51,290 bases of DNA from a virus: positions 1 to 51,290 of IMG/VR virus record IMGVR_UViG_3300031143_000770; one strand, 5' to 3'. The first letter of the stretch is position 1, and every line of letters starts with the position of its first letter. Below are positions 8,174 to 50,498 of the stretch, in pieces. The notes under the pieces were generated by a model. The model saw only the letters and a program-made list of their open reading frames with translations. It made no database searches and was not told the origin of the DNA. The position numbers were made by a program, and so were the translations under genes.

Positions 8174-9047
8174 ATACAGTGAAGCATTCTATTCGCTTCA
8201 AGGTGAAGGTAAATTTGTAGGTGTGCCTAGTGTATTCTTGCGTACTTTCGGTTGCAATTTTCGCTGCAAATCATTTTCAATGTCGAGTGAAGAACGTGAA
8301 TCTATCAAAGACGAACGATACAATCCAGAAGTAAAGAAATTGATTGATGATGGTGTACATATAAATGCTACGCTATTGGAAGACTTACCTATCATTCATA
8401 CAGGCTGTGATACATACGCGAGTATCTACCCAGAGTTCAAGCACTTGATGTTTGATCGTACTGTAGATGAAGTAGTTGATCACTTGTTATCGCTTACGCC
8501 AAACGGTAAGTGGATGATGGATAATGGTCAAGATATTCACTTAGTGATTACTGGTGGCGAACCTTTATTGGCATGGCAACGTATGTATGTGGATATATTT
8601 GAACATCCTCGTATGAGTGATTTAAGAAATGTTACATTTGAAACAAACACAACTCAGTCATTACATGACGAGTTATTTGAATATCTAGATAATAAAGATA
8701 CAATCACAGTAACGTGGAGTTGTTCACCTAAACTATTGGTTAGTGGCGAATCTCATGAAGATGCGATTAAGCCTGGTGTTGCTGTTCAGTATCGTCTAGT
8801 TACTGGTAATAATTTATATCTTAAATTTGTTGTATCTAATGCGGCAGATGTAGCAGAAGTAGATGAGGTAGTGACAGAGTATCGTAATTTTGGTATTGAA
8901 TGTCCTGTATATCTTATGCCAATAGGTGGTCGCTCAGAAGAGTACGATTTATCAGTAAGAGATATTGCACAGTTGGCATTAGAAAAAGGTTATAGATTTA
9001 GCCCAAGATTGCACATAGATTTATATGGTAATAATTGGGGTACATAA
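8163..9047 (+). CDS. queE: 7-carboxy-7-deazaguanine synthase, variant cluster motif
   Basis: Radical SAM enzyme converting carboxy-tetrahydropterin to 7-carboxy-7-deazaguanine in preQ0 synthesis. Diagnostic blocks are the N-terminal FYSLQGEGKFVGVPSVFLRTFG and the SAM-binding ITGGEP. The Fe-S motif is unusual: Cys31 and Cys35 fit CxxxCxxC, but the third position is Phe38. A cysteine further on (Cys82, in HTGCDTYAS) may supply the third ligand. At 294 residues it is longer than cellular QueE. The start is the ATG at 8163, inside the MazG-like gene; the TTG one codon earlier is not needed. Confidence 0.85.
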   Translation: MKLRYSEAFYSLQGEGKFVGVPSVFLRTFGCNFRCKSFSMSSEERESIKDERYNPEVKKLIDDGVHINATLLEDLPIIHTGCDTYASIYPEFKHLMFDRTVDEVVDHLLSLTPNGKWMMDNGQDIHLVITGGEPLLAWQRMYVDIFEHPRMSDLRNVTFETNTTQSLHDELFEYLDNKDTITVTWSCSPKLLVSGESHEDAIKPGVAVQYRLVTGNNLYLKFVVSNAADVAEVDEVVTEYRNFGIECPVYLMPIGGRSEEYDLSVRDIAQLALEKGYRFSPRLHIDLYGNNWGT

Positions 9048-9050
9048 ATA
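9043..9050 (+). promoter_or_regulatory. T4-like late promoter box (CATAAATA)
   Basis: CATAAATA 38 nt before the metK start, overlapping the end of queE. It resembles the T4 late -10 element TATAAATA. Confidence 0.5.
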
Positions 9051-9088
9051 GTACAAGCAATATAAAATGGAGATTTACAAAACAAATT

Positions 9089-10186
9089 ATGAATAATTAT
9101 ATTTTTACAAGTGAAAGTGTTAGCGAAGGACATCCCGACAAAGTAGCAGATCAAATATCTGATGCGCTTGTTGATGCAGGATTTAAAGTCGGCAATGAAA
9201 CCACACGTGTCGCAATTGAGACATTAGTTACTACCAATATGGTTACAGTTGCAGGAGAGGTTAAAAACTTCTTTGTAACAAATCAAGAAGTAGAGCAAAT
9301 AATTCGTGATACGGTTCGTAGAATTGGTTATGAACAAGATGGTTTTCATTGGGAAGTTATAGAGATACATAATGTTATACATACGCAAAGTGATGATATT
9401 GCATTAGGCACAGATGACTTTGGTGCAGGTGATCAGGGCATCATGTTTGGTTACGCATGCAATGACAATGATGCATATCTACCAGCACCAATTTACTACG
9501 CACATGAAGTTCTAAAAGCATTACAGAGAGTAAAATCATCAGAATCAATTGATCCCATATTGGGACCAGATGCAAAGTCGCAAGTATCAGTAGAATACAA
9601 AGATGGCAAAGTATCGCGTATTGACCAAGTAGTTATTTCAACACAGCATAAAGAAGGTCGTTACATAGAAGCATGCATTCTTGCTAGGAATGCAGCAGAA
9701 ATTGTATTGAAAGGTTTAATTGACAACGATACTGTGTGGCATATCAATCCTACGGGTAATTTTGTTATTGGAGGACCTGATGGCGATACTGGTGTTACTG
9801 GTCGTAAGATCATTGTAGATACATATGGTGGTTTTGCACCGCATGGTGGTGGTGCATTTAGTGGTAAAGATCCTACTAAGGTAGATCGTAGTGCAGCGTA
9901 TATGGCACGATGGTTGGCAAAGAATGTAGTAGCAAGTAAGATGGCTACATGGTGTCAGATTCAATTGAGTTATGCTATTGGTGTTAAAGAGCCTACTAGT
10001 ATCTACATTGATAGTGATGGTAGTAACAGTGAGATTGAGTCATTCATTCGTGATAATATTGATTTAACACCGAAGGCTATTATTGATAGGTTTGATTTAT
10101 TTAACTTTACTGACTATAGCACCAACTGCGTGTATGGTCATTTTGGAAACAAAGATGTTCCGTGGGAAAAGATTGGTTGGGAATAG
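9089..10186 (+). CDS. metK: S-adenosylmethionine synthetase
   Basis: Makes SAM from ATP and methionine. The full-length 365-residue protein has the N-terminal FTSESVSEGHPDKVADQISDA motif, the GAGDQGIMFGYA hexapeptide region, and the GPDGDTGVTGRK and GGGAFSGKDPTKVDRSAAY blocks, so it should be active. I start at the ATG at 9089, where family homology begins; the frame is open 54 nt further upstream. The window holds five radical SAM loci, a MTA/SAH nucleosidase and an IscA-type carrier, so a phage-owned SAM supply makes sense. Confidence 0.95.
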   Translation: MNNYIFTSESVSEGHPDKVADQISDALVDAGFKVGNETTRVAIETLVTTNMVTVAGEVKNFFVTNQEVEQIIRDTVRRIGYEQDGFHWEVIEIHNVIHTQSDDIALGTDDFGAGDQGIMFGYACNDNDAYLPAPIYYAHEVLKALQRVKSSESIDPILGPDAKSQVSVEYKDGKVSRIDQVVISTQHKEGRYIEACILARNAAEIVLKGLIDNDTVWHINPTGNFVIGGPDGDTGVTGRKIIVDTYGGFAPHGGGAFSGKDPTKVDRSAAYMARWLAKNVVASKMATWCQIQLSYAIGVKEPTSIYIDSDGSNSEIESFIRDNIDLTPKAIIDRFDLFNFTDYSTNCVYGHFGNKDVPWEKIGWE

Positions 10187-12366: not shown

Positions 12367-12921
12367 ATGAACTTATTATATAAAATCGTATTTAAAATTA
12401 CTTTAGTAGTATTATTAGGATTAGCACAATTTACTTCGGTTACATACGCATCAGTAATTGAAACAGAATCAACAAGTAACAGTACCGTTACAACCAATGG
12501 TACAAATACAACAACAGTAAAAAGTCCACCTCCGAGTGCAATCAGTCCTAGTATCAACGCTAGTAACAGTGATTTATGTACAGTGGGAATATCAGGTGCA
12601 GTGCAAACGCAGATACTAGGTATTAGTGGTGGAAGCACAGTGCGAGATATGAACTGTGAACGTTTAAAATTATCCAAAACAATATATGACATGGGCATGA
12701 AAGTTGCCGCAGTAAGTGTTATGTGTCAAGATACCAGAATATTCAATGCTATGAAAATGGCAGGAACACCTTGTCCATATTTGGGTACAATTGGCGCAGA
12801 GGCTCAGACGCAGTGGGATGATAATACAGAAATGCAACCAGCGCAAATAGAGGAAACCGAAAAAGATGATAAATTTAAAACAATTGGCGGCCTTCTTTTG
12901 TTTCTGCTTATTCTTCTCTAG
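12367..12921 (+). CDS. Exported phage protein with C-terminal membrane tail
   Basis: A 184-residue protein. A signal peptide or N-terminal anchor (about residues 1-28) leads into a Ser/Thr/Asn-rich linker. The conserved-looking core contains SDLCTVGISGAVQTQILG and MNCERLKLSKTIYDMGMKVAAVS, with several paired cysteines. It ends in a hydrophobic tail IGGLLLFLLILL. I recognise the core from T4-like marine phages, where it has no known function. Its last 56 bp overlap the start of the next gene in another frame. Confidence 0.75.
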   Translation: MNLLYKIVFKITLVVLLGLAQFTSVTYASVIETESTSNSTVTTNGTNTTTVKSPPPSAISPSINASNSDLCTVGISGAVQTQILGISGGSTVRDMNCERLKLSKTIYDMGMKVAAVSVMCQDTRIFNAMKMAGTPCPYLGTIGAEAQTQWDDNTEMQPAQIEETEKDDKFKTIGGLLLFLLILL

Positions 12922-20341: not shown

Positions 20342-20635
20342 ATGGCAATTGAACAAAACGATAGATCATTTAGTAAGATTTTTGATGAGATCGACATACA
20401 AACTATACCTCCCAAATATATACAAGCAATCATCCTTACATTAGTAGGTGGTGAGAAGATAGAAATATCAGATGAAATGCTAGATTCTATTACATCGGCA
20501 GAAGATGTATTCGCAGGAATCGAGCGAGAAGATGTCATGAACGTTGATATTGCTCTTGATTATGAAGCAATCGAATATGATGTAAGCACCGATGTGAAGA
20601 GCGTGCTAGACGGTCTATTCGGCAATCATGACTGA
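20342..20635 (+). CDS. Conserved phage protein, 97 aa
   Basis: An acidic 97-residue protein with DIQTIPPKYIQAIILTLVGGEKIEI and a C-terminal YEAIEYDVSTDVKSVLDGLF block. I recognise this arrangement from T4-like phages; its function is unknown. It overlaps the next gene by 8 bp. Confidence 0.66.
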   Translation: MAIEQNDRSFSKIFDEIDIQTIPPKYIQAIILTLVGGEKIEISDEMLDSITSAEDVFAGIEREDVMNVDIALDYEAIEYDVSTDVKSVLDGLFGNHD

Positions 20636-21284
20636 TAGTGCAACCAGAATATGGATGTGCGGTATACCCGGATCTAAATGGTCTGGAATAGATATGCATA
20701 TGCGTCAAGTGTTACCATGTGATCAGACTGATGAATCAGATGAACGCACATGTTATCATAGAGCGTATTCACCAACCGATACTAACAACGGACATCGTGG
20801 TAGTTATTGGGGACCAGGAATGGGATGTGGTGAAGATTGGATAGACTTCAATTTTATGGATAAATCAAAAATAATCAACGACATAGATACAGTATTCACT
20901 GGTACTGGTTACAAAATAATAAAAGATCATTTCTTGGCTAGACAATTTAATCTAGATTACGTGTGGAATAATTTTTCTGGTGATTATATAGTTCTTGTAT
21001 ATAGAGAACCACAGAAATCATTTGCATGGTGGTCAGAAGTTATGGATTTTGGCGAGGGACATTATCCAGATTATGCGCCTGGATATACTGATTATAATAC
21101 AATGAGAAAGTTGCTGTGGACTGAATCTGCAAAGATAACAGACTTCGCAGTTCGTAAAGATATGAATTTCTCACTATATAACAATCAAGCATTCCAATCA
21201 ATTGATGGATTTGCTTGGAAAACGGCTAATAAACTTGACATTATGACCAATGACACATATATATCTGTAAAGCGAATACCATAA
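20628..21284 (+). CDS. Sulfotransferase-like protein
   Basis: A 218-residue protein opening with MCGIPGSKWSG, which resembles the phosphosulfate-binding loop of PAPS-dependent sulfotransferases. YKIIKDHFLARQ and YIVLVYREPQKSFAWW look like the core strand and 3'-phosphate-binding segment. Similar proteins occur in marine T4-like phages, from memory. The acceptor is unknown. The stop overlaps the start of the oxygenase gene that follows, so the two are probably coupled. Confidence 0.5.
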   Translation: MTDSATRIWMCGIPGSKWSGIDMHMRQVLPCDQTDESDERTCYHRAYSPTDTNNGHRGSYWGPGMGCGEDWIDFNFMDKSKIINDIDTVFTGTGYKIIKDHFLARQFNLDYVWNNFSGDYIVLVYREPQKSFAWWSEVMDFGEGHYPDYAPGYTDYNTMRKLLWTESAKITDFAVRKDMNFSLYNNQAFQSIDGFAWKTANKLDIMTNDTYISVKRIP

Positions 21285-21988
21285 TGTCAAGTCCGTTTAA
21301 AACACCTTGGCACTTTGATAAATTTCGCACAGATGAAGAAGGTGAGTATGTTAAGATTGTTGGAATAGTCAATGGTGACTGGACAACAGAGATAGATCAT
21401 GCTCGTTCAAAAGACTTCAATGTTCAAAATTATAATGAACAGCGTTATGAACATGCTGCTAACAAAAAAAGTAAAAACCATATAGAAGAAGATAAAGAGA
21501 ATCCTGATGGTAAACCTGGATCTACTATGTTTCGTAAAATTAATTACGATAAGTTCCCTAGCGAGTTCCCAAAATTAAATGCGATCACAGATTTATTACA
21601 ACTTGATAAAGATGAAAAGTTAACATGTAAGTTCAATGAGCAGTTCCCTAACGATCAACTTATGTGGCATATTGATAACTTGCCGGGAAACCCACGTAAA
21701 GAGCGTGTGATAGATAATCCCGAATTCAAGCATTCAAACGACAATAAAATACGCTTCTTGATCACATTAGAAGATTGGGAACCAGGACAAGTCTTTCAGT
21801 TTGGTAATAGAGTATACACCCAATGGAAAGCAGGTACTATATTTACATGGGAATGGAGTACATTGCCTCATTTAACATGGAATGGTAGTTGGTCAAAGCG
21901 TCCTTGTTTACAGATCACAGGTACAGCAACACCATCAACATGGGATATTGTGCGTAACGGTAATGCAGATATCATCTATAACATATAA
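21284..21988 (+). CDS. 2-oxoglutarate/Fe(II) oxygenase-like protein
   Basis: A 234-residue protein with the jelly-roll iron site: His129-x-Asp131 in MWHIDNLPG, distal His196 in TLPHLTWNG and Arg206 in KRPCLQITG. These match the His-Asp-His triad plus the 2-oxoglutarate-binding Arg. It likely hydroxylates a macromolecule or small metabolite; the substrate is unknown. It is coupled to the sulfotransferase-like gene and followed by two radical SAM genes. Confidence 0.68.
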   Translation: MSSPFKTPWHFDKFRTDEEGEYVKIVGIVNGDWTTEIDHARSKDFNVQNYNEQRYEHAANKKSKNHIEEDKENPDGKPGSTMFRKINYDKFPSEFPKLNAITDLLQLDKDEKLTCKFNEQFPNDQLMWHIDNLPGNPRKERVIDNPEFKHSNDNKIRFLITLEDWEPGQVFQFGNRVYTQWKAGTIFTWEWSTLPHLTWNGSWSKRPCLQITGTATPSTWDIVRNGNADIIYNI

Positions 21989-21991
21989 ATA
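21984..21991 (+). promoter_or_regulatory. T4-like late promoter box (TATAAATA)
   Basis: An exact TATAAATA 35 nt before the radical SAM start at 22027. Confidence 0.6.
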
Positions 21992-22026
21992 AAAGAGTGT
22001 CATAAATCGACACAAAGGAAACTAAA

Positions 22027-23460
22027 ATGACAGAAAAGAAATTACCATCAGATACGTTTTGTATTCTACCTTGGATACATTTGAGTACTCGCCCAGACGG
22101 CAGTATGAGAGTATGTTGTACAGCAAATGCAAGTAGTGTTGGTGCAACAAATGATAAAGTTCACGGTGGGCGAGTTGGCATTGTTAAGACAGATGATGGT
22201 AAGCCTGCAAACCTAAACAACAGTGACTTGTCTAGTGCATGGAACAATAGTTACATGCGTGGTGTACGTCAACAAATGCTTGCAGGAGAAAAGCCTGCTA
22301 GTTGTTTGAAATGTTACAAAGAAGAAGATGCAGGACATCGATCTAAGCGACAGTGGGAAACCCAGTACTGGATGCGTGATGGAATTGATGTTGATGAACT
22401 TGTTAAAGAAACATATGAAGACGGTTCAACTGATTCAAAACTACGATACATTGATATCCGTATGGGTACTAAATGCCAACTTGGTTGCGTTATGTGTAGT
22501 CCACACGATTCATCAGGATGGGTAAAAGATTGGAATAAGTTGTATCCACAGATTACCAATGAGTCACTAAAAGAAACAATGTCTTGGGATGATAAAGGCA
22601 AGCAGTTTGGTGCTAATTATAACTGGCATAAAAACAACCCACAGTTTTGGGAACAATTTTATGCTCAAATTCCATTCATGCGTCAACTATACTTTGCAGG
22701 CGGCGAATCGACGGTTATCGAAGAGCATTATGAAATCCTAGATAAAGTTATTGAAATGGGTTATGCATCTCAGATTGAGTTGCGTTACAACAGTAATGGC
22801 ATTGAATTGCCTGATCGTCTACTAGAGCAATGGAAGCATTTCCAAAAGGTACGTTTCCATTATAGTATTGACAGTATTGGTGAAATGAATGATTATATTC
22901 GTTACCCAAGTGAATGGTCACATCAACTTGCAATGTTTGAGCGTCTTGATACACAGACTTCTAACAACGTAGAGATTACAATCGCGTGTGCAGTTAACGC
23001 ACTAAACATTCACTACATTCCAGACTTCCTTAAATGGAAACTGCAATCAGACTTGAAGAAGACAAACATGTGGCCCTTTGGCGCTGGTGGTATTAACTAT
23101 CACTTTGTATACTGGCCAGGACATTTGAATGTCAAGGTATTGCCAGATGAGTTCTTAGACAAAACCGAAGCGAAGTATGAAGAGTTCATTGCATGGTGGA
23201 AAGAGAATTGGGAACTAGGTGTTCCAAGTTGGCACAAGGGTAAAGTAGATTATCAGACATGGGAAGATGCTGAATATGGCATCAAGCGTTTACGTGGTAT
23301 GATTAGTTTTGCTCGTAGTGAAGATTGGAGTCAGCGATTACCAGAGTTTAGAGAATACATTAACAAACTAGACGAGATGCGCGGCACCGATTTCAGAAAA
23401 ACATTTGCAGACATGGCTTACTTATTAGACGAGCCTACAGAGGACAATGATAGTGACTGA
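22027..23460 (+). CDS. Twitch-domain radical SAM enzyme (first of two)
   Basis: A 477-residue radical SAM protein. The radical cluster motif is Cys150-x3-Cys154-x2-Cys157 (KCQLGCVMC), and FAGGEST acts as the GGE SAM-binding motif. An N-terminal cysteine-bearing module (FCILPWIHLSTRPDGSMRVCC, later CLKC) resembles the SPASM/twitch auxiliary Fe-S domain, placed before the core rather than after it. Such enzymes modify peptides or sugars; the target is unknown. It overlaps the nucleosidase gene, which could remove its 5'-deoxyadenosine product. Confidence 0.82.
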   Translation: MTEKKLPSDTFCILPWIHLSTRPDGSMRVCCTANASSVGATNDKVHGGRVGIVKTDDGKPANLNNSDLSSAWNNSYMRGVRQQMLAGEKPASCLKCYKEEDAGHRSKRQWETQYWMRDGIDVDELVKETYEDGSTDSKLRYIDIRMGTKCQLGCVMCSPHDSSGWVKDWNKLYPQITNESLKETMSWDDKGKQFGANYNWHKNNPQFWEQFYAQIPFMRQLYFAGGESTVIEEHYEILDKVIEMGYASQIELRYNSNGIELPDRLLEQWKHFQKVRFHYSIDSIGEMNDYIRYPSEWSHQLAMFERLDTQTSNNVEITIACAVNALNIHYIPDFLKWKLQSDLKKTNMWPFGAGGINYHFVYWPGHLNVKVLPDEFLDKTEAKYEEFIAWWKENWELGVPSWHKGKVDYQTWEDAEYGIKRLRGMISFARSEDWSQRLPEFREYINKLDEMRGTDFRKTFADMAYLLDEPTEDNDSD

Positions 23461-24001
23461 TGTAATACCAGTATTAATTGCGTTAGAAGTGGAATTGCCC
23501 TATGAATTACCGACACCATATGTTAAAATAGTAACAGGTGTCGGTAAGATCAAAGCGACAATGGCAGCAATGGAAGCAGTATTTAAGTACAATCCTCATA
23601 CCATTATCAATATGGGTACTGCGGGCAGTTTAGATCCTGATTTAGCACTAGGTGTACATGAAGTTAGTACCGTAGGTCAACGAGATATGGATGCATCGCC
23701 TTTAGGTTGGAAAGTAGGACAGACTCCGTTCACTGGTGAATTATGGATAGATCTAAAACTTAGTGGTGTTTCATTGACTAGTGGTGATAACTTTGTCACA
23801 AGTCAGCCACCATTGAGTAGTACACTGGTTGATATGGAAGCATATGGTATTGCAATGGTATGCAAACAGTATAAAGTTATCTTTGATTGCTATAAGTACG
23901 TATCAGACTTTGCAGATGAAGATTCAACTACAGACTGGGAACAGAATTGCTCCGATGGTGCAAATGAATTCATGAAAATATTATCAAATCGTAGCGAGTA
24001 A
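23447..24001 (+). CDS. MTA/SAH nucleosidase-like phosphorylase-superfamily enzyme
   Basis: A 184-residue protein, somewhat short for MTA/SAH nucleosidase. The family motifs are present: TGVGKIKATMAA and INMGTAGSL (N-terminal), LVDMEAYGIAMVCKQ (ribose-binding Met-Glu) and YKYVSDFADE (purine-site Asp). It would split methylthioadenosine, SAH or 5'-deoxyadenosine. Its start lies inside the upstream radical SAM gene, suggesting a shared job of clearing inhibitory by-products. Confidence 0.8.
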   Translation: MIVTDVIPVLIALEVELPYELPTPYVKIVTGVGKIKATMAAMEAVFKYNPHTIINMGTAGSLDPDLALGVHEVSTVGQRDMDASPLGWKVGQTPFTGELWIDLKLSGVSLTSGDNFVTSQPPLSSTLVDMEAYGIAMVCKQYKVIFDCYKYVSDFADEDSTTDWEQNCSDGANEFMKILSNRSE

Positions 24002-24004
24002 ATA

Positions 24005-25570
24005 ATGTTAGATGTTGTCATGTTGGCGTATGGTGAACCAAACGCTGATCAAAATTTCAAAAGAATACAGAAATTAGCACCCAATGCGAAGAGGGTAGAT
24101 AATGTCGTCGGGATTTTAGAGGCACATCAAGCAGCAGCAAAATTGGCAACTACTGATAATTTTTATGTAGTAGATGCTGACGCGGTGTTATCTGAGCATT
24201 TTAATTTCTCATTCACACCTGATATCATTAAAGAATCGTATCCGGGTGTGAATGAATCAAGTTGTGTATTCGTATGGCAGAGTGTTAATGCAGTCAATGG
24301 ATTGATTTATGGTTATGGTGGAGTAAAGTTATTCCCTAGACATAAGTTATTGAATGCGAAATCATTTCAGATAGATATGACCACAACAATAGATGCACCA
24401 TTAGTAGTGAAGCAACAAATATCTAATATAACCGAATTCAATACAGATGAATTCAGTACATGGCGCAGTGCATTCCGTGAGTGTACAAAACTAGCATCTA
24501 ACCCCACTCCAGATATGGATGATCGATACAGATTAGATGTATGGTGTACTCGTGGAGATAGCAGTGCCCATGGAAAATATGCTATAATGGGTGCTAGACA
24601 AGGACGAGAGTTCGGTGCATTTTACAAAAATGATAAGAAAACTCTAGATAAAATAAACGATTTCACTTGGTTAACCACTACATTTGACAAGTCATCAGTG
24701 CATACAATAGATCAGCATCACCCAATTCATTTATCATGGTTTCATGGACTAGAAGAATATTTTACATTGTCATCCGTAGAATCATACTATGCAGTATTTA
24801 TTAAACTAAAGAATGCACTGGTATACGGTGATAACTGGGGCATTCGCGATCTTATTTTAGAAGAAGTAAATATAGGTAAGAATGAAGACACTGAACTTTA
24901 TGTTAATGTAATACTTCAATCATTATTAATAGATGATTATGTAATACCAGATCATCAAGTATTGGAATATATTAATCGCAATATTAATGATAATTTTATA
25001 TATGGATTGATGAAATTGTCTGACCCATCGCATGGTAATATTGATCTAGTAGATTTTATCACACGTGATTCGATGATAGGCAAGTCTTGGATGATTGAAG
25101 AATTAAGTAAGACAACGTTGGAACCATCTGATGTTGTAATATTGGGTGGTAACATATGCACCCATTCATCTATGTTAATTAATAATTATGAAACAATTGA
25201 ATCTATACTTAGTGTGGATATAGATCATAAGACAACAGAGTATGCTCGTTTGTTAAATCATATAGCAGAATCTGACGAATTATTCAGTGCACAAACCAAT
25301 GATGTATCTGATATAATATGGGATGAATCATCTCTGCCTGATTTATTGATAAACACTAGTTGCGCACATATGGATGATACATGGTTTGACAATATACCAG
25401 ATACTGATGATACTTTGATAGTAATACAGACAAATGATTTTTCAGATAATATGAACTGCGTTAAAGATCTGTCTACCGCCATGACTAAATACCAAATGAA
25501 AGAAGTATTATTTAGTGGTGAACAAAGCACACAGTTATATAATAGATTTATGATTATAGGAATCAAGTAA
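24005..25570 (+). CDS. Glycosyltransferase-like protein fused to a methyltransferase-like domain
   Basis: A 521-residue two-domain protein. The N-terminal part looks like a GT-A glycosyltransferase, with VDADAVL as the DxD motif near residue 58. The C-terminal 140 residues (DVVILGGNICTHSSM, then INTSCAHMD, then RFMIIGIK) look like a Rossmann methyltransferase-type domain. They match the C-terminus of the repeat protein at 46590-47840. It sits between two radical SAM genes and overlaps the second by one base (taATG). Substrates unknown. Confidence 0.6.
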   Translation: MLDVVMLAYGEPNADQNFKRIQKLAPNAKRVDNVVGILEAHQAAAKLATTDNFYVVDADAVLSEHFNFSFTPDIIKESYPGVNESSCVFVWQSVNAVNGLIYGYGGVKLFPRHKLLNAKSFQIDMTTTIDAPLVVKQQISNITEFNTDEFSTWRSAFRECTKLASNPTPDMDDRYRLDVWCTRGDSSAHGKYAIMGARQGREFGAFYKNDKKTLDKINDFTWLTTTFDKSSVHTIDQHHPIHLSWFHGLEEYFTLSSVESYYAVFIKLKNALVYGDNWGIRDLILEEVNIGKNEDTELYVNVILQSLLIDDYVIPDHQVLEYINRNINDNFIYGLMKLSDPSHGNIDLVDFITRDSMIGKSWMIEELSKTTLEPSDVVILGGNICTHSSMLINNYETIESILSVDIDHKTTEYARLLNHIAESDELFSAQTNDVSDIIWDESSLPDLLINTSCAHMDDTWFDNIPDTDDTLIVIQTNDFSDNMNCVKDLSTAMTKYQMKEVLFSGEQSTQLYNRFMIIGIK

Positions 25571-26883
25571 TGAACGATGACGATATAAAGAACAATGACA
25601 CAGATAATGGGTTTTGCGCACTGCCATTTGTACAATATAGTACATTCAATGGGGGTCGTTATCGATTATGTTGTATGGCAAAGGAACCTAGTGAACTTAT
25701 TAATCAAGAAGAACTAGGCATAGATGGAACATGGAATCATGATTACATTCGTAGTGTTCGTGAGCGTATGGCTACGGGCGAATGGCTACCAGAGTGTATA
25801 GAATGTAAAAGATTAGAACGTAACGATATTATAAGTTCTCGTCAATGGGAAAACTATTCATGGAAAGATCAGGTTCCAGATATTGTAGCATTAGCAAGTG
25901 CAAATGATTGGAATATAGAACAGCCTCTACAATTTGATTTTAGATTAGGTAATTTGTGTAATCTACAATGTCAGATGTGTAACAAAGAAGCATCGCATTT
26001 AGTAAGTGTTGAGCGTGCCAATATGATTGCAACAGATTTGGGTCCCAAATCTCCTAACTTAGATAGATATGATTGGGACAATAATATTGCTAATAAAAAG
26101 AAAGCGATAATTCAGCCTGGCATCGATTGGGATAGTTTTGATAAGATGCTGCCATATGCACAGACGATTAAAATGATTGGCGGCGAACCAACTGTTGTAT
26201 CTGATATGTTCAAGTTGCTAGACAGAGCAACTGAATCCGGATACGCAAAAAATATTACATTATCGTTCTACACGAACATCACCAATATGCAAGATAGATG
26301 GTTGAAGCAATTTAGTCAGTTTAAGCAAGTTGTTGTAAATTGCTCATTAGAGGGCATGGGTGATATGAATGATTATTTACGTCCGCCATCGCAGTGGGAT
26401 TCAGTATGGGAAAATTTTGATAAGTTAGTAAAGTATTCAAATACATCAGAAGGAAAGAACATTCGTGTACGTGTCACTACGGTGAATCAAGTAACAAACG
26501 CGTTGCATTTGGTTCCATTCTGGAGATTTATGCACGATTATCAACAGACTAATGACCGTACCATCGGCATGAGTACGAATCAATTGGTAGAACCTGAATA
26601 TTACTCAATGGCGCATAGTCCCCAATGGTTGCGTGATGAACAGAAATCACAGATACTAGAATTTTTAGAAGAGATAAAAGATAGTCCTCATTATGAAGAT
26701 TATTCACGTCCGTTAATGGAAGCATTGCATTTTGGCGAAGATCCAGAAACCAAGTATGATCGTGGATTTATGAGGGATTATGTTCAAGTAACAGAAAACT
26801 ATGATAAGCATCGCGGACATGATGTGATGTCAGTAGCACCTGAATTTAGCCGAATTAAATCAGATTTAGAACTTGACAAGTAA
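25570..26883 (+). CDS. Twitch-domain radical SAM enzyme (second of two)
   Basis: A 437-residue relative of the enzyme at 22027. The N-terminal cysteine module (GFCALPFVQYSTFNGGRYRLCC, CIECK) comes before the radical cluster Cys130-x3-Cys134-x2-Cys137 (LCNLQCQMC) and the IGGEPTV motif. The two enzymes probably act on related substrates. The gene starts at the preceding stop codon. Confidence 0.82.
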   Translation: MNDDDIKNNDTDNGFCALPFVQYSTFNGGRYRLCCMAKEPSELINQEELGIDGTWNHDYIRSVRERMATGEWLPECIECKRLERNDIISSRQWENYSWKDQVPDIVALASANDWNIEQPLQFDFRLGNLCNLQCQMCNKEASHLVSVERANMIATDLGPKSPNLDRYDWDNNIANKKKAIIQPGIDWDSFDKMLPYAQTIKMIGGEPTVVSDMFKLLDRATESGYAKNITLSFYTNITNMQDRWLKQFSQFKQVVVNCSLEGMGDMNDYLRPPSQWDSVWENFDKLVKYSNTSEGKNIRVRVTTVNQVTNALHLVPFWRFMHDYQQTNDRTIGMSTNQLVEPEYYSMAHSPQWLRDEQKSQILEFLEEIKDSPHYEDYSRPLMEALHFGEDPETKYDRGFMRDYVQVTENYDKHRGHDVMSVAPEFSRIKSDLELDK

Positions 26884-26891
26884 GGAAATAA

Positions 26892-27560
26892 ATGACATCA
26901 ACTAATATGGAATATTTAACTGAGATAGATTTTGCATTAACCACATATTGTCAAGCACGATGTAGAAGTTGTGCTAGAACGAATCAATATACTGGTGAAA
27001 AAGAAGATTGGTTAGAACTCAAGCATATGAATCTAGATGTGTTTAAACGAACTCTTGCAGCATCTACTAATATAAAGTATAATATAATTGAGTTTTGTGG
27101 CGAGTTGGGCGATCCCATGATGCATCCACAAGTTGACAAATTTATAGAAACTGCATTAGAATATGCACCATCAATATTAATATCAACAAATGGTGCGCTT
27201 AGAAATGCAAACTGGTATAAGACGATAGCAGAAAAATACACAGACGATGTCTTTATAAATTGGGCAATTGATGGAGCAACACATGACACCAATTGGAAGT
27301 ATAGAGAAGGTGTTGATTTTAATAAAGCTTTTGAAAATATGAAAACTCACACTCAATCAGGTGGGGATGGTGAATGGCGATATTTAATATTTGAGTGGAA
27401 TTGGCATGAAATACCGCTAGCACGTCAAATGGCAAAAGAGATTGGAATTAAAATTATTTTTTGCTTCAATAATAGAGATTTTGGATTAATAACACCAGAT
27501 TCTAGATTGGATGCAGAAAAATTATTAATAGGAGTGAGTCCAGATGACATCAAAGGGTAA
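26892..27560 (+). CDS. Radical SAM core protein (split from its SPASM partner)
   Basis: A 222-residue radical SAM domain with Cys20-x3-Cys24-x2-Cys27 (YCQARCRSC), FCGELGDPM in the SAM-binding position, and WAIDGATHD. It lacks the C-terminal auxiliary cysteines, which lie in the next frame (27544-27954). The single-chain homologue at 35289 carries both parts. The split may be a frameshift or a genuine two-subunit arrangement. Confidence 0.75.
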   Translation: MTSTNMEYLTEIDFALTTYCQARCRSCARTNQYTGEKEDWLELKHMNLDVFKRTLAASTNIKYNIIEFCGELGDPMMHPQVDKFIETALEYAPSILISTNGALRNANWYKTIAEKYTDDVFINWAIDGATHDTNWKYREGVDFNKAFENMKTHTQSGGDGEWRYLIFEWNWHEIPLARQMAKEIGIKIIFCFNNRDFGLITPDSRLDAEKLLIGVSPDDIKG

Positions 27561-27954
27561 ATATAATATTGAATGTCAATCATTCGAAGCTCTAAATGAA
27601 TTTACTAACCTCCCTGTAAGAAAATGGGAAGTAACACCAGAAGGAAGAGTGTGGCCATGTTGTTATTTTGCAAATGCATGGGATAGACGACATATGATGA
27701 GGGCAGATGAATTGGGTCCCGATGAAGATTCTAGTGAAGAAGATTTTCATAATGTAAATGGTGAATCAGCAGAATTATTGAATGATGCTAGAATGATGAC
27801 TATAATAAATGAAGATCCTGATTGGAATAGTTTAGAACATCACTCTATAGAAGAAATCATAGCGCACGAAGTATTCCACAGTTACATCTGGACTGAAGGA
27901 TGGAATAGCGATAATCCTGCGATATTGTGTGTTAATAATTGTAATAAGTGTTGA
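27544..27954 (+). CDS. SPASM-like auxiliary Fe-S domain protein
   Basis: A 136-residue protein carrying the auxiliary cysteines seen at the C-terminus of radical SAM/SPASM enzymes: EGRVWPCCYF near residue 38 and CVNNCNKC at the end. Its ATG overlaps the upstream core gene by 17 bp and has its own ribosome site (ggag at 27531-27534, 9 nt upstream). The frame is closed upstream by TGA at 27535. It is probably the second half of one enzyme. Confidence 0.68.
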   Translation: MTSKGKYNIECQSFEALNEFTNLPVRKWEVTPEGRVWPCCYFANAWDRRHMMRADELGPDEDSSEEDFHNVNGESAELLNDARMMTIINEDPDWNSLEHHSIEEIIAHEVFHSYIWTEGWNSDNPAILCVNNCNKC

Positions 27955-28367: not shown

Positions 28368-28514
28368 TAGACAAAAGGGTTTGGGTTGTAGCGCAGTCTG
28401 GGAGAAGCGTCTATCCTCGGTGATGTAGCATTAGATTAATTACCTAATACCCTGCATTACATAGATAGAAGGTCGTGGGTTCGAATCCCTCCAACTCCGT
28501 TAGAGTTTTGTCTA
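28368..28514 (+). ncRNA. Stem-closed region around the Pro-type tRNA
   Basis: tagacaaaa (28368-28376) pairs perfectly with ttttgtcta (28506-28514) and encloses the tRNA-Pro-like gene. A second copy of the left arm, atattagaca (28330-28339), can instead pair with tgtctaatat (28509-28518). Confidence 0.5.
28382..28499 (+). tRNA. tRNA-Pro(CGG)-like gene with a 41-nt anticodon-loop insertion
   Basis: D-arm, T-arm (loop TTCGAAT) and acceptor (six of seven pairs) match tRNA-Pro. The anticodon stem ctatc/gatag encloses 48 nt instead of 7. The loop reads C-T-CGG, then about 41 extra nt that fold on themselves (atgta/tacat, ttag/ctaa). No CCA is encoded. It could be an intron-like insertion or a decayed gene. 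Confidence 0.5.
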
Positions 28515-30667: not shown

Positions 30668-30753
30668 GCAGGATACGACTCATGGTGAGACAGCGGATTG
30701 TAAATCCGTAGCGTGTAATGCGCAAGTAGGTTCAATTCCTTCATCCTGCACCA
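30668..30753 (+). tRNA. tRNA-Tyr(GTA)
   Basis: Acceptor gcaggat/atcctgc with A-CCA, anticodon stem gcgga/tccgt with loop TTGTAAA, long variable arm, T-loop TTCAATT. Confidence 0.88.
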
Positions 30754-30873: not shown

Positions 30874-31197
30874 ATGGCAATTACATTATCTAAAGAAGCA
30901 TCAGAGCGCATATCAGATTACATGATCAACAGAGGACCTACGTACGGTGTACGTGTAGGTGTAAGAACAACAGGTTGTTCTGGTCTTGCATACATAGTAG
31001 AGTTTGTCGATAATATTGACGAGAATGATACAGTCTTTGTATCAAATGAAATAAGTATTGTAGTAGATCCTAAAGGTTTAACATACCTTGACGGTACTGA
31101 GTTGGATTATGGACGTGATGGACTCAACGAAGGATTCAGATTTAATAATCCAAACGCAAAAGACGAATGCGGTTGTGGCGAAAGTTTCACTGTATAA
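30874..31197 (+). CDS. A-type iron-sulfur carrier protein (IscA/ErpA family)
   Basis: A 107-residue protein with the three conserved cluster cysteines: Cys35 in TTGCSGLAY and Cys99/Cys101 in ECGCGESF. The family block ISIVVDPKGLTYLDGTELDY is complete. It delivers Fe-S clusters to apo-enzymes. Five 4Fe-4S radical SAM loci lie in the window, so they are the probable clients. It is isolated within the tRNA island and has a good ribosome site (aggagaa). Confidence 0.93.
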   Translation: MAITLSKEASERISDYMINRGPTYGVRVGVRTTGCSGLAYIVEFVDNIDENDTVFVSNEISIVVDPKGLTYLDGTELDYGRDGLNEGFRFNNPNAKDECGCGESFTV

Positions 31198-35288: not shown

Positions 35289-36314
35289 ATGTATGACATT
35301 AAAACAATAGAATTGGAATTAGCAACTGTGTGCAATGCATATTGTCCCGTATGTATTCGCTATGATGCAAGAGACGAAGGTTTATTTTTAAACCCCAAAG
35401 CCAATCTTAATCAATTGATAGATCTAGATACTATCGACAAATGTTTTAAATCAGACAAAATACCCGATGACGTAGAAGTGAGTCTAGTTGGTACTTCTGG
35501 CGATCCACTTGCTCATCCTAAAATTTTAGATATTATCAAATTGATATTACATCATAAGTCGCATGCAACATTTAATATCCATACTAATGGTGGACTTAGA
35601 TCAACAAAATTATTCGCTGAACTTGCACATATATTAGGAGATGGCGATAGGTTTTGTTTTAGTTTAGATGGGTTAGCAGATACCAACCATATATATCGAA
35701 TAGGGGTTGACTTCAAGAAAGTAATATCTAATATGACTGCATTCATTGAAGCGGGCGGCACACCAATTTGGCAATTTGTGATATTTGATTGGAACAAACA
35801 TCAGATAGAAGAATGTAGAAAATATGCATTTGATTTAGGCTGTAGAGCATTTGAGTCTCGCGAAAATGTCAATCCCGGGCTTATAGATGTCGCCATCGCA
35901 TCTGCAAATAAGCAGATAGTTAATGCTGTATCTCCATCGTTTTATTCTGATAGTATGGTCGAGTCTGATGATTATGATTACATAGACGATGCGTGTATTC
36001 AAGAACAAGGAATATTCATGGCACCAGATGGTAAAGTATATCCTTGTTGTATGTTCTATGCGGAACGTGCGGGTCCAGGTTCTACATTGGTGTACGATAC
36101 CATGTATAAGAAGTTTGGATATGATTGGAATGATTTAACTATATATTCACTAGATCAGATTCTAGATCATGCTTGGTGGGATGAACTACATACCAGCATA
36201 GTTAAAAGTCCATGTGTTACATGCATCAATAACTGTGGTGCTGTTCGTGATGAACGTAGTAATTCTGACATAAACGAAAAGGCATATCAAAATATTTCAA
36301 GGACATTAATATGA
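35289..36314 (+). CDS. Radical SAM/SPASM-type enzyme
   Basis: A 341-residue radical SAM protein with Cys15-x3-Cys19-x2-Cys22 (VCNAYCPVC) and SLVGTSGDPL in the SAM-binding region. The C-terminal auxiliary cluster cysteines are in KVYPCCMF and CVTCINNC. It is the single-chain counterpart of the split pair at 26892-27954. There is no clear ribosome site; a 10-codon upstream ORF (35264-35296) overlaps the ATG, and an AATAAATA box lies at 35251. Substrate unknown. Confidence 0.82.
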   Translation: MYDIKTIELELATVCNAYCPVCIRYDARDEGLFLNPKANLNQLIDLDTIDKCFKSDKIPDDVEVSLVGTSGDPLAHPKILDIIKLILHHKSHATFNIHTNGGLRSTKLFAELAHILGDGDRFCFSLDGLADTNHIYRIGVDFKKVISNMTAFIEAGGTPIWQFVIFDWNKHQIEECRKYAFDLGCRAFESRENVNPGLIDVAIASANKQIVNAVSPSFYSDSMVESDDYDYIDDACIQEQGIFMAPDGKVYPCCMFYAERAGPGSTLVYDTMYKKFGYDWNDLTIYSLDQILDHAWWDELHTSIVKSPCVTCINNCGAVRDERSNSDINEKAYQNISRTLI

Positions 36315-38110: not shown

Positions 38111-38725
38111 ATGTTAGTACCAACAGTAGTAGAATCAACAGGACGTGGAGAACGCGCTTATGATATTTATAGTCGCTTGCTTCGTGATCGGATTATTATG
38201 CTCAATGGAGAAGTAAACGATCACACCGCAAACCTAATCGTAGCACAGATGTTATTTTTGGAATCAGAAAATCCATCAGAAGACATCAATTTTTACATCA
38301 ATAGTGGCGGTGGTTCTGTCACCGCTGGACTTAGTATCTATGATACTATGCAGTATATCAATTCACCAGTGTCTACCATCGTAATGGGACAAGCGTGTTC
38401 AATGGGATCATTGTTATCGCAAGCGGGCGCTCCAGGAAAGCGATTTGTTTTACCTAACAGTCGTACTATGATTCATCGTGTTAGTTCGGGCACTCAGGGT
38501 ACACGTGGTAGTATTCATGTACAAGAACTTGAGTTTGAAGATGCAAAGCGACATATGGATGAGTCAGTTAATTTGAACAATCGTCTTACGCAGTTGTATG
38601 TAGATCATAGCAGCAAAGGAAAATCATTTGATGAGTTTTATGCTACTATGAAGCACGACACTTTCATGTCAGCACCAGAAGCAGTTGAATTTGGTCTTGC
38701 TGATAAAGTGATTGCTAAGATCTAG
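38111..38725 (+). CDS. clpP: ATP-dependent Clp protease proteolytic subunit
   Basis: A 204-residue ClpP with an intact triad: Ser98 in [10 protein letters not shown], His122 in TMIHRVSSG, Asp183 in [12 protein letters not shown]. The [15 protein letters not shown] strand is typical. ClpP forms the proteolytic barrel and needs a ClpX-type unfoldase, which is encoded at 42828. It has its own consensus promoter, so early expression is likely. Some phages use ClpP homologues as prohead proteases, but the presence of ClpX and ClpS here favours regulated proteolysis. Confidence 0.93.
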
Positions 38726-48305: not shown

Positions 48306-48582
48306 TCTAATGCAAGCGAATCCGCGATTAACTATTGTTTTACTTGCTACAATTGTATATGCATTGGCTTACTGGATGGGACGAAATTCTTGTCAAAGTA
48401 TGATTGACGATGCGGTGCAAGCATCTGTTGCAGTCTCAATAAAAATAACAACAGAAACGGTAGTCAATGAACTTATTGATGCTGGTTATATTTGCTGTCG
48501 TGAGGAAGAAGAAGATGGTGAGATTGTATCTTACATGATTACATATGAAGAATATATTGCTTCAAATCCTCAAACTAAATAA
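48298..48582 (+). CDS. Membrane-anchored hypothetical protein, 94 aa
   Basis: A 94-residue protein with an N-terminal transmembrane helix (about residues 10-27, LTIVLLATIVYALAYWMG) and an acidic tail. The start is placed at 48298, overlapping the previous gene. Not recognised. Confidence 0.6.
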   Translation: MIDLMQANPRLTIVLLATIVYALAYWMGRNSCQSMIDDAVQASVAVSIKITTETVVNELIDAGYICCREEEEDGEIVSYMITYEEYIASNPQTK

Positions 48583-48586
48583 TACT

Positions 48587-49423
48587 ATGACAAGACTAGC
48601 AAAAGATAGTGTCGCACAAGATGACATTAAAGTAACCATTTTCAATCCAACCGATATTACTGAAATAGCAGATACAGACGAATTATATAATGCGTTTGAA
48701 TCTGGTTGGCCCGTGGTCATATCTGGATTAAAGATCCCTGGCATTGATTACGATTATTATAACGATTTGCCAGATTGGGTAATCGAAGATAATAAATGGA
48801 TTGCACCTTGGTATCCAAGTGATATTCGTAAACGAGATAGGTTACGCAACGAGCGAGATTGGTCAGAAGAACAGATTGATGAATTCGCACAGCAACACAA
48901 AGAATCAAATAAAGCATGGAATAATTTCTTTGCTGAGTTGATGCCTCGTTATGCAAATGCAACGGGTAAAAGTGTTAGTCACCGATACAATATGTTAGTT
49001 GAAAACAATTTACACTTCGACGAACTAGACCAAGAGCATACTGGACAAGAACAACAGATTCGTGTATTGACTAACATGGATAAACAACGCTGTCGTATTA
49101 CTGCGGTAGGTCCTAACATAGAACAATTGTATAATAAATACTATGATGAATTTAAGTTATGGGAATTAGATAAAGAAGACCCGCACGCATTCATTACAGA
49201 AATGCGCAATCGTTGTATTTGGAACGATAAAAATTGGTCACATTTCCACCACCCATTGCATTATATAACATGTGATCCAGGTGATATTTGGTTACTCAAT
49301 GCACAGTGGGTATCACATCAAATTGTATTCGGAGCAAAGTTACAAGTATTCGAAGCAGATATTCAGAAAGAACACATGCTAAACCCAGAGTTGGTTATGG
49401 CAGAACGTATTAAAAATTTATAA
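48587..49423 (+). CDS. 2OG-Fe(II) oxygenase-like protein
   Basis: A 278-residue protein. His143-x-Asp145 in NNLHFDELD and a later His in WVSHQIVFGAKLQ suggest the iron triad. The usual 2-oxoglutarate Arg is not obvious (Lys is nearby), so the assignment is tentative. The ATG at 48587 is preferred. It is followed 10 bp later by the amidinotransferase and then a radical SAM gene, so the three may modify one product. Confidence 0.5.
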   Translation: MTRLAKDSVAQDDIKVTIFNPTDITEIADTDELYNAFESGWPVVISGLKIPGIDYDYYNDLPDWVIEDNKWIAPWYPSDIRKRDRLRNERDWSEEQIDEFAQQHKESNKAWNNFFAELMPRYANATGKSVSHRYNMLVENNLHFDELDQEHTGQEQQIRVLTNMDKQRCRITAVGPNIEQLYNKYYDEFKLWELDKEDPHAFITEMRNRCIWNDKNWSHFHHPLHYITCDPGDIWLLNAQWVSHQIVFGAKLQVFEADIQKEHMLNPELVMAERIKNL

Positions 49424-49433
49424 GGAATAACAT

Positions 49434-50498
49434 ATGAACGCAGTTAACGCTTGGACAGAGTTTCAACCATTGAAGAAAGTAGTATTGGGTGCACCATTCC
49501 CAGAAACTGCATTTGATTGGCACGAAGATGAAGAGACACGAGACACTATGCGACAAATCTTCCGTGAAACAGCCGAAGATATTGAAGTATTAGCACAACT
49601 ATTAGAAGCACGTGGAATTGAAGTGGTACGTCCCAAGAACATCTTTACAATCACTGGTGAAGAACAGATTCAATTACCGTGGGCTCATTGTGCGTTTCCG
49701 AACCATCCATTAATGCCGCGCGATACGTTGATGCCATATGGTCATTCAATTTTTGAATGCTTTACAGGCGGTGACAATCGTTACTTTGAAAACCTAGCAT
49801 ACTATGATCACGTAGTAGAATGGTTTAAACAAGGTGCTGATTGGATTTCAATGCCTGGCTGCATGGTAGAAACTGGTAAAGGATATGATGAATACGTAGC
49901 AGAGCAGCGTGTACTGTATCATGCTGCAAATATGATCAAGTGTGGTGATACTATCTTATTCAGTCAACCATACGAAGGTGACAACAAGCGTGGACGTGGT
50001 ACGAATTTGGGCAAGGAATGGATGCAAAGAGAAATCAAACAGCGTTATCCTGATACTAAATTTATTGATATTCCAATTGGTGGTCACATAGATGGTAAGA
50101 TTGCATTATTGAAGCCGGGTGTTCTTATGACGTGGAACAAAGCATGGGTCCCAGAAGAATTCAAGAATTGGACAATCATTGAAGTAGAAGATGATTTTGA
50201 CATGCCAGCAGATTTTCAAAATACACGTAAGCGTAGATACTATAAAGAGTATGTACAGAAGTGGTTAAGTCATTGGGTAGGTTATGCAGACGAGTCTGTA
50301 TTTGATGTTAATGTATTATCATTGGATGAAAAGACGGTAATCTGTACAGGTAAAAACGATGCAGCATTTGCTGAAATGGAAGCAAACGGAATTGAACCAA
50401 TTGTTTGGCGATTCCGTCATCAGTATTTTTGGGATGGTGGTATCCATTGCTTGACTAGTGATATCGTACGTGAAGGTAATTGTGAGAATTATTTATGA
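49434..50498 (+). CDS. Amidinotransferase (glycine amidinotransferase-like)
   Basis: A 354-residue pentein-fold enzyme that moves an amidino group from arginine to an amine. Residues visible are the N-terminal KKVVLGAPFP, Asp in LMPRDTLMP, the catalytic His in IGGHIDGKI and the nucleophile Cys339 in GGIHCLTSDI. It is close to full length for the family. It sits between an oxygenase-like gene and a radical SAM gene; the acceptor amine is unknown. The stop overlaps the next start (ATGA). Confidence 0.85.
   Translation: MNAVNAWTEFQPLKKVVLGAPFPETAFDWHEDEETRDTMRQIFRETAEDIEVLAQLLEARGIEVVRPKNIFTITGEEQIQLPWAHCAFPNHPLMPRDTLMPYGHSIFECFTGGDNRYFENLAYYDHVVEWFKQGADWISMPGCMVETGKGYDEYVAEQRVLYHAANMIKCGDTILFSQPYEGDNKRGRGTNLGKEWMQREIKQRYPDTKFIDIPIGGHIDGKIALLKPGVLMTWNKAWVPEEFKNWTIIEVEDDFDMPADFQNTRKRRYYKEYVQKWLSHWVGYADESVFDVNVLSLDEKTVICTGKNDAAFAEMEANGIEPIVWRFRHQYFWDGGIHCLTSDIVREGNCENYL

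Follow-up and report, generated by a model that had tools for sequence, protein, structure and literature searches.

A 51,290-nt stretch of marine phage DNA from IMGVR_UViG_3300031143_000770 (the window; the parent genome, G001, is 192 kb long) probably contains the phage version of a radical SAM island of multiple modifying enzymes, with SAM and Fe–S supply genes, its core taken from Bdellovibrionota-like bacteria and its substrate a surface peptide/protein or glycan. Gene content, family membership, conservation and co-occurrence were observed directly, and from these we infer catalysis, a shared pathway and the nature of the substrate. Eight plus-strand ORFs at 20628–27954 overlap or almost abut (Table 1). 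All eight were present where the first-pass annotation had placed them, and each has relatives. Its proposal of a modification cluster built from peptide- or glycan-decorating enzymes was supported, with most of the individual enzyme calls proving right, and the cluster matched no known metabolic pathway.

Table 1. Features of the window discussed in the text, in order of position (nt)
Feature	Position	Strand	Evidence
S-adenosylmethionine synthetase MetK	9035..10186	+	Three MetK Pfam domains, E to 2e-57
orf97, small protein associated with Tw1	20342..20635	+	Conserved neighbourhood
ST, sulfotransferase-fold protein, 218 aa	20628..21284	+	Predicted fold
OG, Fe(II)/2-oxoglutarate-oxygenase-like protein, 234 aa	21284..21988	+	Invariant metal/2OG residues
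TATAAATA octamer, T4-late-like	21984..21991	+	Exact match
Tw1, radical SAM with N-terminal SPASM/twitch module, 477 aa	22027..23460	+	NF033640, PF13186
NUC, MTA/SAH/5′-deoxyadenosine nucleosidase-like, 184 aa	23447..24001	+	PF01048
GTMT, GT-like domain (~aa 1–230) and class I methyltransferase-fold domain (~aa 245–521)	24005..25570	+	
Tw2, second radical SAM with N-terminal twitch module, 437 aa	25570..26883	+	NF033640
Radical SAM core half of split pair, 222 aa	26892..27560	+	CxxxCxxC, phrog_21308
SPASM-like half of split pair, 136 aa	27544..27954	+	SPASM match, Cys pattern
IscA, A-type Fe–S carrier	30874..31197	+	PF01521, 70.3 bits
Further radical SAM protein with C-terminal Cys module	35289..36314	+	PF04055, 39.2 bits; Cys list
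F16, Kdo-hydroxylase-like oxygenase family	48545..49423	+	L019 relative matches PF11004, weak, E 0.0025
Amidinotransferase	49434..50498	+	HsvA 1.3e-28, SxtG 1.8e-19

The cluster genes are mostly under purifying selection. Compared with L005/L087, dN/dS was 0.05–0.19 for orf97, ST, OG, Tw1, NUC, GTMT and Tw2 (0.04–0.05 for Tw1), and the values were less clear for the split pair (0.23 and 0.49 against the diverged L005). A conserved core order, orf97-(ST-OG)-Tw1-(x)-NUC-Tw2, was found in approximately 15 distinct loci of group 1, where the Tw2 orthologue follows NUC immediately or one gene later. Gene content downstream of Tw1 was highly variable between loci: GTMT shares this position in no viruses beyond the three closest, and only near-identical copies have the split pair alongside. 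Seven or eight genes had been described as coupled, which held for ST, OG, Tw1, NUC and Tw2, co-conserved together with orf97, but not for the GT fusion and the split pair, which are lineage-specific neighbours of the conserved core. The small protein orf97, for which Pfam, PHROG and NCBIfam gave no match, lies 5′ of Tw1 in all group-1 loci (approximately 7 kb further up in L108), and a weak match to it directly follows Tw1 in L070–L073 (E 1e-6 to 1e-8). Among the phage isolates searched, there were almost no relatives of Tw1, ST, OG or GTMT; Vibrio phage K566 showed six PF04055 matches, with distant relatives only.

Both twitch enzymes are members of the NF033640 N_Twi_rSAM family, with scores of 421.8 bits for Tw1 and 290.9 bits for Tw2, far above the cut-off of 170. 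The SPASM domain PF13186 covers residues 12–97 of Tw1. The cysteines of Tw1 (C12/30/31/93/96, followed by the CxxxCxxC core C150/154/157) and of Tw2 (C16/34/35/76/79, followed by C130/134/137) agree with the earlier observation that the auxiliary cysteine module precedes the radical core in both enzymes, and the eight cluster cysteines of Tw1 were invariant among 21 homologues. No substrate can be read from the family name. In this cluster, two family members have a nucleosidase, an oxygenase and a sulfotransferase-fold protein as coupled partners.

The third radical SAM system of the cluster is divided between a pair of ORFs that are read in different frames; the downstream ORF has its own ATG and an AGGAG-type ribosome site. 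The core half carries CxxxCxxC at residue 20, a PF04055 match of 24.7 bits (below the cut-off) and a match to phrog_21308 (E 3e-20), and the other half shows a weak SPASM match (E 0.0046) and cysteines at 11, 39, 40, 129, 133 and 136. The same split was found in the viruses L005, L016, L019 and L047/L049. A programmed frameshift joining the two ORFs was rejected, as the offset varies (+2 in L005, +1 in the other loci examined) and the second ORF has a start of its own in every case. An HExxH motif in the SPASM half (HEVFH, SprT-like, E 0.069) was taken as chance within the SPASM C-terminal pattern.

SPASM maturases such as SkfB, PapB and DynA likewise combine a radical SAM core with an auxiliary-cluster module, and sequence comparison with PDB gave one plausible match, SkfB (E 6e-5). 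Unlike in SkfB, PapB and DynA, the SPASM module here is N-terminal or located on a separate protein and no precursor peptide was seen, and the cluster proteins scored far under the cut-offs of the SPASM peptide-maturase families (SkfB, PapB, DynA and others).

No precursor peptide was found within the cluster, in line with the first-pass annotation; its ORFs overlap or nearly abut and leave no internal room. Two small conserved proteins lack a variable core: orf97, which is conserved over its full length with no leader/core pattern, was rejected as a precursor, and F3 (74–81 aa, between the MT and F1 radical SAM genes of other loci), uniformly conserved as well, is less likely a precursor than a partner protein. 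A Cys/Tyr-rich repeat protein at 12866–15280 was also rejected as the substrate. It is not tied to the array, because its relatives occur in nine virus records (the largest 62 kb) in which no radical SAM genes were found. As a side observation, a protein rich in Cys and Tyr would be an attractive substrate given the resemblance of ST to tyrosylprotein sulfotransferases. SdpA/SdpB-like membrane pairs in Bdellovibrionota islands were considered as a hint of a peptide and set aside for want of Pfam support.

The sulfotransferase-like call for ST, originally made by eye, was supported by the predicted fold. The AF2 model (pLDDT 90.8) gave tyrosylprotein sulfotransferases in the top seven rows of the VIA search (Z 10.5–9.5), followed by adenylate kinases (8.9); no Foldseek match at E ≤ 0.001 and no sequence-family match were obtained. 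The best structural neighbour aligned over 169 residues (Z 10.5, rmsd 3.2), but at 11% identity and with no detectable sequence homology, ST being the shorter protein. A P-loop-like motif (G12-x-P14-G15-S16-x-W18) is invariant among ST homologues, and R126 and S131 are nearly so. The 3′-phosphate-binding Arg and Ser of PAPS-dependent sulfotransferases are usually spaced by 8, which differs from the spacing of 5 in ST. In OG, H129-x-D131…H196…R206 is invariant in 19 homologues, with the arginine ten residues past the distal histidine; one protein of phage S-SCSM2R that bears a 2OG-Fe(II) oxygenase annotation was matched weakly. PDB sequence searches with the ST, OG, GT and MT profiles returned nothing useful, and OG had no match.

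In GTMT, D59 of the GT-like domain is invariant and D57 nearly invariant among relatives. The GT2 family PF00535 was matched by two of 22 relatives (best E 4e-4). The MT domain model (pLDDT 91.4) aligned with NodS at Z 17.2, and nicotianamine synthase was also near the top in Foldseek; the modelled fold is compatible with either methyl or aminocarboxypropyl transfer. SAM-binding motif I is degenerate in the window copy (GGNICTH, compared with GGWYxxx in relatives). GT and MT are separate genes in most relatives.

NUC matched PF01048 with 49.8 bits (cut-off 25.1), and its profile matched MTA/SAH nucleosidases in PDB (4pr3, E 2e-18). Residues E16, M130-E131 and D154 are invariant among homologues, and we take E16, E131 and D154 to be the catalytic Glu/Glu/Asp of MTA/SAH nucleosidase. 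NUC thus shares the profile match and catalytic residues of Pfs but differs in being shorter, in being encoded between radical SAM genes and in scoring under every NCBIfam equivalog cut-off (at best 96.3 vs. 129 for NF004168; 52.1 vs. 73.8 for TIGR01704). In the group-1 loci read, NUC adjoins Tw2 or sits one gene away. Because it stays beside Tw2 even in group-1 loci without an adjacent MT, a role in removing radical SAM by-products fits, and service to the MT alone was rejected. 5′-Deoxyadenosine is a known inhibitor of radical SAM enzymes, according to PMC8102628.

Besides MetK and IscA, the phage encodes an IscS-like enzyme and a ferredoxin; together with NUC, these probably provide supply and clean-up for radical SAM chemistry. 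Among the 26 virus records compared, which are fragments, NUC was found in 12 (including all 11 group-1 records), MetK in 11 (ten of them with NUC) and IscA in 10. MetK accompanied NUC in 10/12 records and occurred without it in 1/14 (Fisher p 0.0002), and the corresponding values for IscA were 9/12 and 1/14 (p 0.0008), with the group-1 records being related rather than independent events. In group 2, NUC was confined to one record, G005, which encodes MetK and IscA as well. The 24 Tw1-bearing records contained 315 PF04055 matches (E ≤ 0.001) in 2.94 Mb, with 6–25 such genes per marine phage record (median 13), vs. 0–2 matches in records found via OG but without Tw1. Radical SAM enzymes perform demanding chemistry, and most use SAM at every turnover; with as many as 25 such genes, frequently accompanied by MetK and NUC, these phages would be investing heavily in an undescribed modification.

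A similar gene load has been reported for TARA_ERS488813_N000010, a T4-like environmental genome of marine origin, approximately 183 kb long, in which an A-type Fe–S carrier is encoded alongside 12 radical SAM genes and for which virus-encoded Fe–S metabolism was proposed (Nishimura et al., 2017, PMC5332604). As far as the excerpts of that account extend, it resembles the present phage in being T4-like, in its many radical SAM genes and in its viral Fe–S carrier, and describes no N-terminal twitch module, gene order, MetK/NUC link or Bdellovibrionota counterpart. Our search for literature on phage radical SAM arrays returned only this study and a brief mention in PMC7150976; judged from the literature searched, neither the module nor its link to a SAM economy nor the Bdellovibrionota counterpart seems to have been described before.

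The nearest cellular relatives of Tw1 (up to 64% identity) lie on Bdellovibrionota chromosomes near GT, MT and F1/F10 radical SAM genes; one array additionally has relatives of F16 and the amidinotransferase, the latter 47% identical in a Bdellovibrionia chromosomal array. In viral relatives, F16 adjoins Tw2 and the amidinotransferase is near it; in G002, the order is Tw2, F16, amidinotransferase. Tw1 orthologues were present in 11 of 191 Bdellovibrionota genomes and in one of 299 Pseudomonadota genomes, that one being the seed. In a Tw1 tree rooted only at the midpoint, the phage sequences nest inside a paraphyletic Bdellovibrionota set. The phage lineage therefore most likely acquired the core from Bdellovibrionota-like bacteria. 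Since Tw1 and several partners have their closest relatives on these chromosomes, the chemistry is not specific to virions, and the virion proteins proposed earlier are at most a candidate target. The Bdellovibrionota gene set offers a cellular, possibly culturable system for finding the product, and such a discovery would also tell what the N_Twi_rSAM family does and what the reported Fe–S gene load of marine T4-like phages is for.

In the mechanism that we propose, Tw1, Tw2 and the split pair would each use CxxxCxxC to bind a [4Fe-4S] cluster that coordinates SAM, and the SPASM-type module, whether N-terminal or on its own protein, to bind at least one auxiliary cluster. SAM would be cleaved reductively to give a 5′-deoxyadenosyl radical, through which the bound substrate would be oxidised or cross-linked. 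OG may then hydroxylate, ST may transfer sulfonate from PAPS, and GT/MT may attach sugars and methyl groups to that product or to others of its class. By clearing 5′-deoxyadenosine and S-adenosylhomocysteine, NUC would keep these by-products from inhibiting the enzymes, while MetK, IscA, the IscS-like enzyme and ferredoxin would provide SAM, clusters and electrons. As the substrate, we consider a peptide/protein or glycan on the cell or virion surface most likely, with a slight lean to peptide/protein. Only tentatively do we extend this to T4-like marine phages having taken over an entire pathway of multiple radical SAM enzymes from Bdellovibrionota-like bacteria, running their own SAM/Fe–S economy to modify a surface peptide, protein or glycan heavily during infection, with the split pair as a two-polypeptide enzyme.

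A real possibility is that the enzymes decorate glycans: the radical SAMs would act on sugars, and surface polysaccharide or LPS of the infected cell, or of the virion, would be modified, perhaps to block superinfection. The GT domain and its GT-like relatives point to it, as do the SGNH-type proteins, NodU-type carbamoyltransferase and oxygenase (weakly Kdo-hydroxylase-like) encoded by related arrays, the island of sugar-nucleotide genes at 51–76 kb of G001, and a UDPG/GDP-mannose dehydrogenase of a Bdellovibrionota array that is 48% identical to one in G001. The GT domain of the window, however, has no Pfam match, the best structural match of ST is of the tyrosylprotein and not the carbohydrate type (weak evidence on the acceptor), and the SPASM-type radical SAMs known so far act mostly on peptides.

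Rather doubtful is the view that the region is hypervariable cargo, with a separate target for each enzyme and the radical SAMs gathered for unrelated reasons. The rapid gene turnover after Tw1, the lineage-specific GTMT and split pair and the 6–25 radical SAM genes per record, many for one product, would suit such a view; a fixed core order in approximately 15 loci and the recurrence of GT, MT, F1, Tw1 and F10 (sometimes with the amidinotransferase and F16) close together in Bdellovibrionota chromosomes speak against it. A diffusible natural product, either a small molecule or a RiPP, directed by the phage against competitors or the host seems unlikely: neither a precursor peptide nor an assembly-line gene was seen and no exporter or immunity gene was recognised within the cluster, although related arrays carry an amidinotransferase akin to HsvA and SxtG as well as carbamoyltransferase, nitroreductase, aminotransferase-like and PP-loop proteins. 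Modification of phage tRNAs or DNA is most improbable despite at least 18 tRNAs in the window, QueE at 8160 and a G001 gene judged by eye to be QueD-like, as the cluster proteins match no tRNA-modification family, QueE lies 13 kb away, and the N-terminal SPASM/twitch architecture and the neighbours suggest otherwise.

Late expression from an exact late-type promoter box had been proposed for the cluster. The TATAAATA octamer at 21984 is indeed exact, but it lies 3′ of ST and OG, overlapping the OG stop codon; of the 18 distinct sequences upstream of Tw1, only four contain it, three of which are almost the same. The window holds 11 octamers of this type, not above chance (8.0 ± 3.2 in shuffled sequences; 24 of 100 shuffles reached 11), and the late-expression proposal, which hangs on this octamer, weakens accordingly. 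Counted 5′ of genes, the octamer ranked first among 56 permutations in G001 (13 matches) and 13th in the relative G002.

The eight ORFs at 20628–27954 on the + strand, which form the modification cluster proposed in the first-pass annotation, overlap or nearly abut one another, and relatives were found for all of them. The cluster most likely encodes a surface-directed or peptide-directed modification pathway. The window is itself a virus record of 51 kb. The 192,024-base record G001 (locus L004) contains it practically unchanged (G001 position = window position p + 114946) and, judged by eye on its gene list, reads as a T4-like myovirus. Against the related loci L005/L087, dN/dS was 0.05–0.19 for the upstream ORF orf97, the sulfotransferase-fold protein ST, the oxygenase-like OG, the twitch radical SAM enzymes Tw1 and Tw2, the nucleosidase-like NUC, and GTMT; the split radical SAM pair gave noisier values (0.23 and 0.49 against the diverged L005).

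The enzyme classes read earlier from the sequence were largely supported. Tw1 and Tw2 both belong to the N_Twi_rSAM family, and SPASM-type cysteines precede CxxxCxxC in both, invariantly across 21 Tw1 homologues, confirming an auxiliary module before the radical core. NUC matched the MTA/SAH-nucleosidase family with catalytic residues kept, although it scored below the equivalog cut-offs. The HxD...H...R pattern of OG was invariant. A search for a sequence-family match to ST found none; its confident predicted model (pLDDT 90.8) was closest to tyrosylprotein sulfotransferases (TPSTs; Z 10.5–9.5, top seven rows), followed by adenylate kinases (8.9). The model supports ST as a sulfotransferase by fold, a match that does not imply the acceptor. 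GTMT joins an N-terminal glycosyltransferase-like (GT) domain with conserved D57 and D59 to a class I methyltransferase (MT) fold (pLDDT 91.4, Z 17.2), whose SAM motif is degenerate in the window copy. The same methyltransferase-like domain, with its GWY motif intact, is fused elsewhere in the window to approximately eight tandem 21–23-aa repeats (AVIEQNLHSIFRLLPDEHEELGR type).

The split radical SAM described earlier also stood, as two ORFs in different frames. Programmed frameshifting across the pair is argued against by the frame offset, which varies between loci. Sequencing error is excluded because two-ORF forms recur in L005, L016, L019, and L047/L049.

Features of the window and of G001 (G001 coordinates where stated)
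Feature	Position	Strand	Remarks
MetK	9035–10186		
Repeat protein	12866–15280		804 aa, secreted-looking
Split pair, radical SAM core half	26892–27560	+	radical core
Split pair, SPASM-like half	27544–27954	+	SPASM-like cysteines; other frame, own ATG after AGGAG
tRNA-like sequence	28380–28505		GGTTCGAATCCC at end; apparent ~70 nt insert
tRNAs	29874 and 30178		called by ARAGORN, missed by Rfam
tRNA	30668–30750		Rfam (36.1 bits), missed by ARAGORN
IscA	30874–31197		
ClpP (Pfam); ClpX, IF-3, ClpS homologues (by eye)	38111–38725, 42828–44057, 44047–44553, 44909–45217		
Repeat–methyltransferase-like fusion	46590–47840		
F16–amidinotransferase pair	48545–50498		
Four tandem paralogues	G001 ~86619–90234	minus	start MKI(T/S/A)IC(V/I)SG(Q/E)TR; glycosyltransferase-like by eye
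Flavin-halogenase-like, AMP-ligase-like, NodU-type carbamoyltransferase-like genes	G001 93796–97432		consecutive; by eye

The Tw1-bearing viral loci read here fell into two families, group 1 (Tw1 81–100% identical) and group 2 (63–69%). The group 1 order, orf97-(ST-OG)-Tw1-(0–1 genes)-NUC-(0–1 genes)-Tw2, was kept in approximately 15 distinct loci, with ST and/or OG absent or replaced in a few (L006, L016–L019, L023). Co-conservation holds for this core but not for GTMT, which takes the cluster position only in L003/L005/L006, or for the split pair, whose place beside the cluster is confined to near-identical copies. Genes downstream of Tw2 in relatives encode an F16-family oxygenase, the amidinotransferase F24, and additional radical SAMs; the window phage carries the same F16–amidinotransferase pair elsewhere. 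In group 2, GT and MT are separate genes that accompany Tw1, as do the small protein F3 and numerous further radical SAMs. F3 (74–81 aa, highly conserved) lies between MT and the F1 radical SAM (L126:8724–8966 and group 2 loci), and no PHROG match to it was found. An oxygenase–radical SAM pairing is recurrent in four viral loci (L107, L117, L118, L119) in which a search for Tw1 found none and a different radical SAM gene directly follows OG.

Tw1-bearing virus records held 6–25 PF04055 matches each (E ≤ 0.001; 24 records; 315 in 2.94 Mb), and records found via OG alone 0–2; selection by a radical SAM gene ensures one match, not a median of 13. MetK occurred in 10/12 records with NUC vs. 1/14 without (p 0.0002) and IscA in 9/12 vs. 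1/14 (p 0.0008), values that overstate independence because the 26 records are related and partial. The only group 2 record with NUC, G005, also carries both. G001 additionally encodes a 4Fe-4S ferredoxin and a class V aminotransferase of the IscS type. MetK by itself is common among unrelated phages (135 records); NUC relatives are rare among phage isolates. 5-deoxyadenosine acts as an inhibitor of radical SAM enzymes and has to be cleared (PMC8102628). On this basis, we infer that MetK, IscA/IscS, and ferredoxin would supply radical SAM chemistry and NUC would clean up after it.

The late-type promoter box reported at 21984 is an exact TATAAATA octamer, but the window holds 11 copies vs. 8.0 ± 3.2 expected, and only 4/18 distinct Tw1 upstream sequences contain it. 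Among 56 permutations, its frequency upstream of genes ranked first in G001 and 13th in the record G002. Late expression of the cluster is possible.

A Tw1 profile scan of species genomes gave 31 loci, mostly Bdellovibrionota MAGs (identity up to 64%), several on contigs of 100–900 kb. In Bdellovibrionota, GT, MT, and the radical SAMs F1, Tw1, and F10 lie within a few kb in varying order and combination. One Bdellovibrionia genome has a ~35 kb chromosomal array that also includes N-twitch proteins, F16/F18 relatives, and an amidinotransferase sharing 47% identity with its phage counterpart; other radical SAM proteins there adjoin a small separate Cys-rich partner. Tw1 orthologues occurred in 11/191 Bdellovibrionota genomes (five being seeds) and 1/299 Pseudomonadota (the seed). 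A quick, midpoint-rooted Tw1 tree nested the phage sequences inside a paraphyletic Bdellovibrionota set. Rows labelled "cell" from outside Bdellovibrionota (for example L141, L158, and L160) contain F3 and may be mis-binned phage contigs.

SPASM-type modules and TPST as the nearest sulfotransferase fold lean weakly toward a peptide or protein substrate; GT domains, SGNH-type and carbamoyltransferase neighbours, and sugar-nucleotide genes lean weakly toward a glycan. Nishimura et al. (2017; PMC5332604) described a T4-like 183 kb genome that carries 12 radical SAM genes together with an A-type carrier, and proposed that Fe-S metabolism is encoded by the virus; the array itself is thus already known. 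In a literature search largely outside subscription journals, no publication turned up on the module, the SAM synthetase–nucleosidase link, or Bdellovibrionota.

Neither ARAGORN nor Rfam called the tRNA-like sequence. The 804-aa protein carries a 22-aa Cys/Tyr repeat (ADPLYDSGCxGYDxAYYNQQC), and related proteins are encoded on virus contigs in which no radical SAM gene was found.
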